Both the position numbers and the translations under genes were made by a program. Below, piece after piece: positions 42,694 through 46,002 of a DNA stretch of 64,000 bases; the stretch's first letter is position 1; each line of letters starts with the position of its first letter. The DNA comes from Desulfatibacillum sp. GTDB taxonomy: Bacteria > Desulfobacterota > Desulfobacteria > Desulfobacterales > SpSt-501. The notes beneath the pieces were generated by a model, which did not search any database, was not told the DNA's origin, and saw nothing but the letters and a program-made list of their open reading frames with translations. The stretch is taken from assembly GCA_020725555.1 (NCBI GenBank), contig DYEU01000004.1, forward strand, positions 1 to 64,000. Reading direction: 5' to 3'.

Positions 42694-43515
42694 ATGGAAT
42701 CGCGGATCGCTGCGGCGCTCGGCGGCGCCTACGGGCCCGTCGCCGTCGTCCTGGCCGACGAGAAGCCCGAAGGGGCGCTTGAATTCAAGCCGGGAAGATG
42801 GGGCTGCGTCATGTTTCTCTTCGCCAACGCCGCCAAGGGCAAGACCGCGGCCTTCTCCGCCGAGACCTACGGCTGCTGGGGAGGCGGGGTAGGCCTGGGC
42901 TTCGGGAACGCCTACTTGCGCTTTCCGGGGGGAGTGGATTGCTTCGCCCATTTTCTCTCCTCCGGAAATGCGGACTGGGAGCAGGGAAGGCAAGTGGGCG
43001 AGGCCCTCAAGGCGCAGGCGGGCAAGGAGTTCCCGCGCGACTTCCTCGAGGGCGAGGGCTACCTCAAGACGCCCGAGCACGTCCACCGCTGGCTGGAGGA
43101 GCTGCCCATCATGGAGATCGCCTCGCGCTTCGTGGTCTTCAAACCCCTCGCCGAAGTCGACCCGGGAACGGAAACGCCCGCGACGGTGGTTTTCCTCGCC
43201 GACCCCGACCGGCTCGCCGCGCTGGTCATCCTCGCCAACTACGCCCGCGGGGGGATGGAGAACGTGATCATCCCCTGGGCCGCAGGCTGCCAGACGATCG
43301 GCATCCTTCCCTTCCGGGAGGCGCGCACGGATTCCCCTCGGGCGGTCGTCGGCCTGACCGACATCTCGGCCCGCAAGTACGTCCGGCCGCTTCTCGGGGG
43401 GGACCTGCTGACGTTTGCCGCCCCCTGGCGCCTGTTCGTCGAGATGGAGGAAAACGTCCCCGGCAGCTTCCTCGAAAAGCCCACCTGGCAGGCACTCATC
43501 CGGGCGCAACGTTGA
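42694..43515 (+). CDS. DUF169 family protein
   Basis: A 273-residue protein of the DUF169 family, common in anaerobes and archaea and without proven function. Family-like features include GAYGPVAVVL near the start, RWGCVMFLFANAAKGKTAAFS with CWGGGVGLGFG near 60, an NYARGGMENVIIPWAAGC block near 182, and RKYVRPLLGGD. The three cysteine-bearing glycine-rich stretches hint at a metal or cofactor site. AAAGGAG precedes the ATG, directly after the inverted-repeat element. Confidence 0.85.
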   Translation: MESRIAAALGGAYGPVAVVLADEKPEGALEFKPGRWGCVMFLFANAAKGKTAAFSAETYGCWGGGVGLGFGNAYLRFPGGVDCFAHFLSSGNADWEQGRQVGEALKAQAGKEFPRDFLEGEGYLKTPEHVHRWLEELPIMEIASRFVVFKPLAEVDPGTETPATVVFLADPDRLAALVILANYARGGMENVIIPWAAGCQTIGILPFREARTDSPRAVVGLTDISARKYVRPLLGGDLLTFAAPWRLFVEMEENVPGSFLEKPTWQALIRAQR

Positions 43516-43584: not shown

Positions 43585-44052
43585 TCAGGGAAGCTCCTCG
43601 AGGATCAACTCGTCCTCGAGGCGGATGCAGCCGATCACGCTTTGGGCCGCCGGGCAGCGGGAAAGATAGTCCGCGAAAGCGGCCTTCGCCTCCGCGGAGC
43701 GTCCCGCCGGCAGCTTCAGGCGATACCTCACGCGGATGCAGGTGATCTTCAAGACCCCCTCCACGTTCTCGATCTCCCCCTCGACCTCGGCCTCGTACCG
43801 GTCCTCGGGGGTGGGAATCCGCTTTCCGGCCAGCACCGCGGCCAGTGTGCCCATCATTCAGGCCGCGGTCGCCGCCACGATGTGATCGAGGGTCGCCGCG
43901 TGTTCCCGGTCGGGATCGATGCGGTAGAAGTTTCGGATCCCGCCGTGAACGCCGTAATAGACCGGTTCGTCAAAGCCCTCGATCACGGCGCGACGGGTAG
44001 GCCCTTTTTCGCGCACGATACGAACCCGGGAAACATGCACCGGCTCTCCCAT
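43585..44052 (-). CDS. OsmC-family protein, probable selenoprotein (in-frame TGA as Sec65)
   Basis: Two abutting frames, 44052-43858 (64 residues) and 43857-43585 (90 residues), are in the same phase and separated only by TGA at 43860-43858. Read through, they give one 155-residue OsmC-fold protein. The TGA falls exactly at the peroxidatic cysteine: DHIVAATAA-U-MMGTLAAVLAGKRI fits the family block where AAC is followed by a helix. The second active-site cysteine (CPAAQSV, residue 133) is present. The ATG at 44052 has a perfect AAGGAGG, while the ATG right after the TGA has none. A SECIS-like hairpin follows the TGA. OsmC-like selenoproteins are known from deltaproteobacteria and marine metagenomes. 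Role: thiol peroxidase for organic hydroperoxides. Confidence 0.85.
43826..43845 (-). promoter_or_regulatory. Bacterial SECIS-like hairpin
   Basis: Starting 13 bases after the TGA, CTGGCC and GGCCGG form a six-base stem (one G-U pair) around the eight-base loop GCGGTGCT, whose first base is G and which contains GGT. Distance and loop match the bacterial SelB-binding pattern. Confidence 0.7.
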
Positions 44053-44125
44053 GGGAGACGACCTCCTTTCCGGAAGAGGGCGAGGGAATCGCCCCGGCTG
44101 CGGCGCAGGCGGCGGCCGGGTCCGG

Positions 44126-44458
44126 TCAGCCGCGGATCATGACGAGCATCATCTTGAAGCGCTCGATCGCTTTCAGCGCATGGGGAACCTGGGCGGGCAT
44201 GATCACCACCCCGCCCGCCGCCACCTCGTTCACCTGGCCTGCGAGCGTGATCGCGGCCCGCCCCTCCAGCACGAAGACCAGCGCATCGAAGGGCGCGGTG
44301 TGCTCGCTCAAGCCCTGGCCGGCATCGAAGGCAAAGAGGGTCACGTTCCCCGACTCGCGCTGGAGGATCGTCCGGCTCACGATCGCGCCCTCGCCATACT
44401 CGACAAGCCGGCTTGCAACCAACGGCACGCCCCGAAGTTCCGCAGGATCCTGGGTCAT
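44126..44458 (-). CDS. Cupin-domain protein
   Basis: A 110-residue single-domain cupin. GQGLSEHTAPFDALVFVLEGRAAITL contains cupin motif 1 with its metal-binding His and Glu-like positions, and GGVVIMPAQVPHALKAIE is motif 2. Small cupins of this type appear in redox-responsive and regulatory roles, with no assigned reaction. The ATG at 44458 has AAGGAG; an upstream ATG adds 23 basic residues without support. It lies 73 bases upstream of the OsmC-family selenoprotein gene on the same strand and may share its transcript. Confidence 0.85.
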   Translation of the reverse strand: MTQDPAELRGVPLVASRLVEYGEGAIVSRTILQRESGNVTLFAFDAGQGLSEHTAPFDALVFVLEGRAAITLAGQVNEVAAGGVVIMPAQVPHALKAIERFKMMLVMIRG

Positions 44459-45261
44459 GGTCTTCTCCTTGCGCCCGAAGCCAAAACGCCTCTCTCCGGG
44501 CAAACGATCGTTTCCTCTCAGGCCCATTTTTCGAACGGATCCTTCCCCGCGCTGCTGATATGATGCTCCCTAACACGCCTGCCGCACGGCGGGCAACCCG
44601 CCGCAGCAAGCGAACGAGACAGATCGCAAGGAGGCCCGATGATTCCCGCCGCCCCGCCGACCGCGGCGGGGGGTGAAACGGGGGGCCGGCTTGAAGACAG
44701 CGGCGTCCCCGAAACCCATGCCGAGCGTCAGAATCCCTTCCGCCCCCACGGCGGCCGCCGGAGACTCCCGGGCGAGGGCCATCCCCGCCCCCGCCCGCCC
44801 CCTATGGCCGAGGGCGCTCATCATCCAACAGACGTCGGCCCGGCGGCGTGCGACGAGCGAGCGGTGCGGCGGGATCTCACCGGAAACGGCCTCGCGTTCG
44901 CATCGGCGTCGGTCGCGGACCTGGGGCCGGGCGATCGTGTCCCCCGGGGTGCGTTTGCGCCAGGGCACCCGTTCCGGCGCAGAGCGCTTTCCCGGATCCC
45001 CACGGCGTTTGCGGCGCTAAGGAGCTGCTTGAATAAAATTTTGGTGCGCCTTGGATCGCACCCCCCTCGCGTTGGCGCTCCACAGGAAAAGAACGCGCAG
45101 AGGAAATTCGCCGGGTCGTCGGGGTCCGCGACCGCGAAGCGGAGTTCCCTCGTGCGGAGCCACTTCGCAATACAGGCGACGATCTCTATGGCCGGGATGG
45201 GGGGGAAAGAGGATGGCCCTCCGGGCCGGAGGATCGCCCGGCCGGGAGGGGAAACCGAGGC
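44459..45261. other. 800-base gap with a perfect palindrome and possible decayed gene
   Basis: No gene here can be supported. AAACGATCGTTT (44502-44513) is a perfect 12-base palindrome 44 bases before the cupin start and may be its operator. AAGGAGG at 44628-44634 precedes an ATG at 44639, but the frame that follows is proline- and arginine-rich and later runs antisense through the glutaredoxin-like gene, so it is probably a decayed or chance frame. Confidence 0.45.
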
Positions 45262-45498
45262 TCACCGGAGGTCGGCCAGGCTCGCCCCGAAGTTGATGTG
45301 GAAGACCCGGCCCTCGAGGACGAGGGCCGGAACGGATTTGACCCCCAGCGTTTCGGCCTCGGCGATGCGCGCCTTGTCGCTTCCGAGGTGCACGATCTCG
45401 ACGTCGAAACGGCTGCGGTCGAGGGCGCCGACCACGGCGCTCTCGGCACTCCGGCAAACAGGGCATCCGGCATGGTAAAAAACGGCTTTCGGTTTCAT
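45262..45498 (-). CDS. Glutaredoxin/thioredoxin-like small protein
   Basis: A 78-residue protein with the redox motif HAGCPVC (cysteines at 12 and 15) and the cis-proline segment VKSVPALVLEGRVFHINFG near residue 53. It is a minimal thioredoxin fold, probably cytosolic. AGGAGG precedes the ATG; the much longer upstream frame is not used. It is divergent from an HxlR-type regulator, across a shared promoter with nested inverted repeats, so it is the likely target of that regulator. Confidence 0.85.
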   Translation of the reverse strand: MKPKAVFYHAGCPVCRSAESAVVGALDRSRFDVEIVHLGSDKARIAEAETLGVKSVPALVLEGRVFHINFGASLADLR

Positions 45499-45513
45499 GG
45501 CTTCGAGCCTCCT

Positions 45514-45557
45514 GTTTTCGGTTGCGGCTTGCCGTGCCCTGCACGGCAACCGAAAAC
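45514..45557. promoter_or_regulatory. Nested inverted repeats in the HxlR/glutaredoxin intergenic region
   Basis: Outer 12-base arms GTTTTCGGTTGC (45514-45525) and GCAACCGAAAAC (45546-45557) are perfectly complementary, and inner arms GCCGTGC and GCACGGC (45531-45547) form a second stem. A third half-site, CTTTTCGGTAAG, occurs near 45589-45600. This is the expected place for HxlR-family binding. Confidence 0.65.
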
Positions 45558-45630: not shown

Positions 45631-46002
45631 ATGAGCGCCATCGACAACGCCCCCTCCGGGGTCTCCGGCATCCCCGTCGCCCGCATGGTGGAGGAGATCG
45701 TCGGCTGCAAGTGGTCGCTTCGCCTGCTTGCGCTCTCCGCCGCCGGTGTGACCCGGCCGGCCGAGATGCAGCGCGCCTGCCCGGGGCTCTCGGCCAAGGT
45801 GATGAACGAGCGGCTGAAGAAGATGGTGCGCTTCGGGATCCTCGAGCGATCCGCCTACGGGGAGAAACCGCCGCTTGCGGTTCACTACCGGCTGACGGCG
45901 TTCGGCGAGCGTTTCCAGGGCCTCCTGCGCGAGATCTGCAGGCTGCAGGAAGCGTTGGACGGCGGGGCATTCGCCCCGGGAAAGGCGCGGGAGGAGGGCT
46001 GA
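45631..46002 (+). CDS. HxlR-family winged-helix regulator
   Basis: A 123-residue regulator of the HxlR (MarR-related) family. The core VEEIVGCKWSLRLLALSAAGVTRPAEMQRACPGLSAKVMNERLKKM is the winged helix; Cys27 in GCKWS occupies a position where redox-sensing family members (YodB, QorR) carry their reactive cysteine. With a divergent glutaredoxin-like gene, a thiol- or electrophile-responsive switch is plausible. Confidence 0.9.
   Translation: MSAIDNAPSGVSGIPVARMVEEIVGCKWSLRLLALSAAGVTRPAEMQRACPGLSAKVMNERLKKMVRFGILERSAYGEKPPLAVHYRLTAFGERFQGLLREICRLQEALDGGAFAPGKAREEG

Follow-up and report, generated by a model that had tools for sequence, protein, structure and literature searches.

The window analyzed here, a stretch of 64,000 nucleotides from contig DYEU01000004.1 of a Desulfatibacillum sp. 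genome (GenBank assembly GCA_020725555.1), carries on its minus strand two abutting reading frames that very probably are a single intact gene. Judging from the sequence comparisons described below, we put the probability at about 0.94 that the UGA at codon 65 of this gene is decoded as selenocysteine (Sec) and that its product is a selenoprotein with a predicted OsmC fold.

Two abutting frames joined by an in-frame TGA

The two frames, 43858-44052 (minus strand, 64 amino acids) and 43585-43857 (minus strand, 90 amino acids), share the same phase and are joined at the TGA at 43860-43858. Reading through this codon yields a product of 155 amino acids with U65, ended by a terminal TGA. The relevant features are the following:

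43588-44052, minus strand: predicted gene of an OsmC-family selenoprotein, 155 codons with Sec as codon 65, terminal stop TGA at 43587-43585
43858-43860, minus strand: UGA predicted to be decoded as Sec (U65), with TGA at this place in all 49 family genes
43654-43656, minus strand: codon of Cys133, the invariant second redox Cys, presumed to be the resolving one
44061-44070, minus strand: Shine-Dalgarno sequence GAAAGGAGGT of the upstream ATG, its AAGGAGG ending 9 bases 5′ of the ATG at 44052

An earlier note on this DNA, made from the letters alone, had claimed that the TGA splits one OsmC-fold protein in phase. The reading frames and their translation bear this out, as does the Pfam match of the read-through protein to the OsmC domain (PF02566), which reaches 40.8 bits at a gathering cut-off of 27.5 (E 3.1e-10, residues 56-143). 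All 17 members of our profile set A1 match PF02566 as well, with E 0.01 or better. The start signals are also as the note had described them: an AAGGAGG stands before the upstream ATG, and the window sequence shows nothing resembling a Shine-Dalgarno sequence upstream of the ATG at 43857, directly after the TGA.

The genome encodes the machinery for selenocysteine insertion

The genome from which the window derives (3.59 Mb in 35 contigs, rated 100% complete) contains a tRNA-Sec with the anticodon TCA (77.6 bits) together with SelA (530.7 bits), SelB (370.2 bits) and SelD (371.2 bits). Thus all four genes selA, selB, selC and selD are present, the absence of which the earlier note would have taken as the mark of a nonsense mutation. 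The SelD gene of the same genome (G000:C18:22871-23794, L043) harbors its own in-frame TGA within GAGUASK, the usual Sec site of SelD, and probably encodes a selenoprotein itself. Because tRNA-Sec, SelA, SelB and SelD are present and SelD carries a TGA of its own, this genome very probably decodes UGA as Sec.

Across genomes, SelB scored above the cut-off in 42 of 45 carriers of the selenoprotein gene compared with 33 of 35 non-carriers. The three carriers in which it did not (G006, G149 and G396) are all drafts of 260-710 contigs. Since SelB is equally common in non-carriers, its co-occurrence with the gene provides little information.

The internal TGA is conserved in all 48 relatives read

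We read 49 genes base by base, and all of them have TGA at codon 65. This set consists of the window gene, nine loci from named public genomes, ten loci from relatives of the window genome and 29 loci from a scan of the phylum; it comprises 48 distinct proteins, one pair being identical. The 48 relatives share 38.2-75.5% identity with the window protein (median 63.2%) and are collinear with it across the TGA. Those from named public genomes belong to Syntrophaceae (two), Neomarinimicrobiota (two), Syntrophobacteraceae, Desulfobacteraceae, Desulfatitalea, “Deltaproteobacteria” and Actinomycetota (one each), and eight of the nine records are titled MAG. The ten others were found among 57 relatives of the window genome; together, these two groups show TGA at codon 65 in 19 of 19 cases. 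The codon opens a common motif, U-x-x-G-T, in all 49 genes (UMMGT in 42, ULTGT in five, UMTGT and UTTGT in one each).

These data bear on the possibility of a nonsense-mutated pseudogene or an assembly error. A stop inside the reading frame is what such a gene would show, and a few relatives elsewhere are indeed fragmentary or interrupted twice (G246; G703 and G748). For the window gene, however, this explanation is refuted by the 48 relatives that share its TGA, some of them only 38% identical and with Syntrophaceae, Desulfobacteraceae and Neomarinimicrobiota records among them, and none of the 49 genes contains a further stop inside the frame. We regard its probability as negligible. Close homologs lacking both Cys and TGA at this position had been named in the earlier note as a second sign of a nonsense mutation; the TGA is found in 48 of 48.

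A stop-start coupling at the TGAATG sequence, by which two polypeptides would be made and then assemble into a split OsmC protein, would agree with the ATG that directly follows the TGA in 43 of the 49 genes. But the other six genes, all with TGA, have CTG (five) or ACG (one) at this place. Moreover, a real stop would allow TAA or TAG, which serve as terminal stops in 19 genes (12 TAA and 7 TAG, next to 30 TGA) and never occur internally, where the stop is always a single TGA. The split would also cost the protein its catalytic Cys, and no ribosome-binding site precedes the second ATG in the window. We therefore reject the split gene as highly improbable and retain the selenoprotein as our reading.

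To this comparison we added scans of whole genomes with the profile A1, in which Sec was entered as Cys to ensure that Cys forms would not rank below Sec forms. The phylum scan covered 395 genomes; in 36 of them, including the window's own, it gave 37 rows of at least 129.9 bits, each with one internal TGA, and the next row scored 63.1 bits. The class scan covered 389 genomes and gave 68 rows of at least 114 bits in 66 of them (own included), again all with internal TGA, one of them with two TGAs and another with a TAA in addition. Pooled, the scans gave 102 distinct strong rows in 99 genomes, with three genomes common to both; at most nine candidates were scored per genome, and the stops are counts, their positions having been checked for the 49 genes only. 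Partial sequences among the strong rows are found in G104 (twice), G703, G648 (its second row) and G684 (twice). We did not count the 12 phylum-scan rows at 63.1 bits or less: eight that extend over the OsmC domain and have no stop, three N-terminal fragments from G246, one of which has a TAA, and a C-terminal fragment from G438. The five lowest rows of the class scan, four short pieces and a domain match lacking a stop (G016), were set aside as well. Among these 395 phylum and 389 class genomes, we encountered no branch member with a Cys codon in place of the TGA. One family match, G748:C1:6468856-6469320, has two internal TGAs.

Sec65 aligns with the peroxidatic Cys of OsmC proteins

We aligned the 49 family members with 29 ordinary OsmC proteins using MAFFT. 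The latter represent the loci that could be placed by script, leaving out L089 (the same gene as L012) and L090 (a clipped locus). The column of U65 holds Cys in 29 of 29 ordinary proteins, and the result was the same whether Sec was written as Cys or masked as X. The proposal that residue 65 occupies the exact place of the peroxidatic Cys is thereby confirmed. In column 133, every one of the 49 family members has Cys; the ordinary proteins have Cys (23 of 29) or Ser (6 of 29). Sec65 and Cys133, which the earlier note had assigned to a reductase, hence both fall into canonical OsmC/Ohr columns. Taken together, the presence of selABCD, the TGA in all 48 homologs and the Cys in all 29 distant OsmC proteins make the Sec reading secure by comparative standards, and insertion of Sec at residue 65 is what we infer from them.

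In a phylogenetic tree, a branch with an SH-aLRT of 97 separates the 49 Sec proteins of the family from the remaining sequences, with two Cys proteins (L095 and L098) next to them; the tree was built rapidly, its branches outside the family are long, and the placement of L078 is unsure. We consider the chances about even that the family is a monophyletic OsmC branch in which Sec is obligatory and no Cys ortholog survives or ever existed. The same balanced confidence applies to its distribution over many families of the window's phylum, which is Thermodesulfobacteriota by the nearest named relatives, and over Neomarinimicrobiota records. If Sec is obligatory, this would suggest a chemistry out of reach for a Cys enzyme of this branch, and the branch would be among the rare selenoproteins without Cys counterparts inside their own clade.

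A candidate SECIS hairpin downstream of the UGA

In bacteria, decoding of UGA as Sec would be aided by a hairpin shortly after the codon, for which the window offers one candidate:

43826-43845, minus strand: SECIS-like hairpin with a six-pair stem (CUGGCC/GGCCGG) and the loop GCGGUGCU, its first base being the 13th downstream of the TGA

Stem, loop and their distance from the TGA are as the earlier note had stated. Its emphasis on a loop starting with G does not extend to the family: the window's type comprises 43 members with 40 distinct sequences, of whose loops 18 begin with G and the others with A, and 37 of the 40 contain a GU at some point in the loop.

Folding of the window sequence alone gave a hairpin no better than chance against dinucleotide shuffles (z 0.10), and we therefore rejected single-sequence folding as proof of a SECIS element; against synonymous-codon shuffles, p was 0.09. 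A search of Rfam returned four matches, all below their gathering scores, with no SECIS among them. Folding of all 49 members against synonymous shuffles resulted in a mean z of –1.33, with p <0.05 in 11 of 49; in one member (L072), the native sequence folds less well than its shuffles do on average.

Comparison across relatives was more informative. Within the 40 distinct sequences, 94.6% of the stem positions are paired, compared with 90.7% after random redistribution of the letters of the 3′ arm, where none of 2000 shuffles reached the observed value, and with at most 52% when the partners were shifted by 1-3 bases, in a statistic that, like the codon statistic below, ignores kinship among the sequences. 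All six pairs form in 32 of the 40, and the two arms covary, for example as CUGGCC/GGCCGG (21 sequences), UUGGCC/GGCCAA (three) or UUCGCC/GGCGAA (two). The Leu and Ala codons that form the arms, at +5, +6, +9 and +10, show codon entropies of 0.82, 0.70, 0.46 and 0.54, against 1.36-2.14 in the nine remaining columns of conserved Leu or Ala, although the Leu/Ala columns were picked after viewing the table and some columns of less degenerate residues elsewhere reach equally low values (e.g., 0.54 for the Ile at –41). This codon restriction is the strongest sign for the hairpin. The check by SECIS-type folding proposed in the earlier note thus had a divided outcome: the single sequence was not significant, and comparative pairing and codon restriction, through which alone the hairpin gains weight, support a bacterial SECIS hairpin.

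A second type within the family (ULTGT/UTTGT; L022, L023 and L031-L034) has no ATG after the TGA. Five of these six genes have another hairpin downstream, rich in GC and following the pattern GCGCGC-UGGAA-GCGCGC, and the sixth (L023) carries an in-frame insert there.

Predicted fold and possible function

An AlphaFold2 model of the window protein has a mean pLDDT of 86. Its top solved structures in Foldseek are OsmC/Ohr proteins (1lql, E 1.7e-6), and the best VIA-align hit is 3cje (Z 12.6, 2.3 Å over 120 residues), so that the predicted model has an OsmC fold. S-adenosylmethionine synthetases, which appear in VIA-align from Z 8.3 downward, just under the lowest-ranking Ohr/OsmC structures (Z about 8 to 10), were dismissed as background.

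With respect to the peroxiredoxin-like OsmC/Ohr hydroperoxide reductases (TIGR03562, TIGR03561, PF02566), the window branch is alike in its predicted fold and in both redox positions. It differs by Sec in place of the first Cys and by the lack of a Glu at –10, and the window protein stays below the NCBIfam cut-offs: it scores 17.8 bits against TIGR03562 at a cut-off of 85.8, and the Ohr model TIGR03561 is not listed for it in the NCBIfam search. Five of the 17 A1 members match TIGR03561 at E up to 1 (best E 0.004), and the 17 show only weak matches to NCBIfam names other than OsmC-type. Ohr enzymes have a Glu ten residues before the catalytic Cys; residues –10/–9 from Sec are Leu-Asp in all 49 members.

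Given the selenoprotein reading, Sec-based peroxide reduction is the somewhat favored function, suggested by the fold and the two redox positions. As these positions fit OsmC/Ohr, we regard a putative Sec peroxide reductase as most likely, with the peroxide chemistry less sure than the Sec itself because the Ohr Glu is not conserved and is replaced by Leu. The “active organic-hydroperoxide reductase” of the earlier note is accordingly a label that we infer only. In the proposed mechanism, SelB and Sec-tRNA(Sec) would decode the UGA at 43860-43858, presumably aided by the hairpin from the 13th base downstream, as its conservation suggests. The resulting protein of 155 residues would carry Sec65 where OsmC proteins have their peroxidatic Cys, with Cys133 at the position of the resolving one. 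Sec65 would attack the O-O bond of the presumed substrate, a peroxide; the selenenic acid would condense with Cys133 to a selenenylsulfide, and a cellular dithiol, the presumed reductant, would reduce it again. The protein would thus scavenge peroxides, organic or other, on its own.

Alternatively, the selenoprotein may not be a hydroperoxide reductase and could perform another thiol/selenol chemistry, for instance by exchanging disulfides or selenenylsulfides, by reducing sulfur or metalloid species, or by acting on a specific metabolite. The distance of the family from the named peroxidase models and the invariant Leu-Asp in place of the Ohr Glu would agree with this, but both OsmC redox positions are kept and the predicted fold matches OsmC and Ohr structures alike. 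We consider such a chemistry a real, if less probable, possibility.

Relation to known OsmC-like selenoproteins

OsmC-like selenoproteins with a UxxT motif were predicted in 2005 and 2008 from the Sargasso Sea and GOS surveys, in the pertinent passages of these papers (PMC1088965, PMC2398784), and excerpts of two reviews list them in tables (PMC9312934, PMC13188914). As far as these passages describe them, the survey proteins resemble ours in the OsmC domain (PF02566/COG1765), in a Sec predicted to lie within a redox motif and in a bacterial SECIS element that is likewise predicted. They have UxxT whereas the window branch has UxxG, a distinction based on the printed motif rather than on a sequence alignment. 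The word OsmC is absent from the main text of deep-Sep (PMC12013277), and the parts of the literature on OsmC with selenoprotein or selenocysteine that we covered contain no description of a UxxG branch. OsmC-like selenoproteins as a kind are therefore known, and the UxxG branch with its apparently obligatory Sec is a variant that the literature covered does not describe. In the literature passages, the kind amounts to one table line and a few sequences; here, it is represented by a coherent branch of 102 rows.

NCBIfam provides a model for OsmC selenoproteins, NF041052 (OsmC_like_Se, OsmC-related (seleno)protein), with a cut-off of 95 bits. The window protein scores 16.8 bits against it, and one of 198 phylum genomes passes the cut-off. 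The one member that we read, L078 (G092:C73:12355-12780), has Sec at the same alignment column; its motif is UMFS, and the tree puts it outside the clade, on a long branch whose position is unsure. The genome of L078 has four rows matching this model. Because the window protein is far below the NCBI model, genes of the branch may well be annotated as fragments. Since Sec is kept down to 38% identity, the role of selenium versus sulfur in the OsmC fold becomes a testable question.

Genomic context

No conserved neighbors were found among mechanically called reading frames, six on each side: no cluster occurs in more than five of 20 loci, and the widest one, in five of 20, is response-regulator-like by eye. 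As no neighbor recurs more often, the context points to no partner or reductant. Relatives were searched for on plasmids, with no match, and one scan of viral contigs revealed none. An upstream gene in the window lies on the same strand:

44126-44527, minus strand: cupin gene (Pfam Cupin_2, 3.9e-9)

This gene is possibly co-transcribed with the selenoprotein gene; by conservation, it is not part of the system. On the other side, a gene for a DUF169 protein (42694-43515, plus strand, 1.1e-45) is convergent with the selenoprotein gene. Also nearby, a Thioredoxin_3-like gene (45262-45555, minus strand) is divergent from a gene for an HxlR-type regulator (45631-46002, plus strand), and the two could form a possible redox pair.
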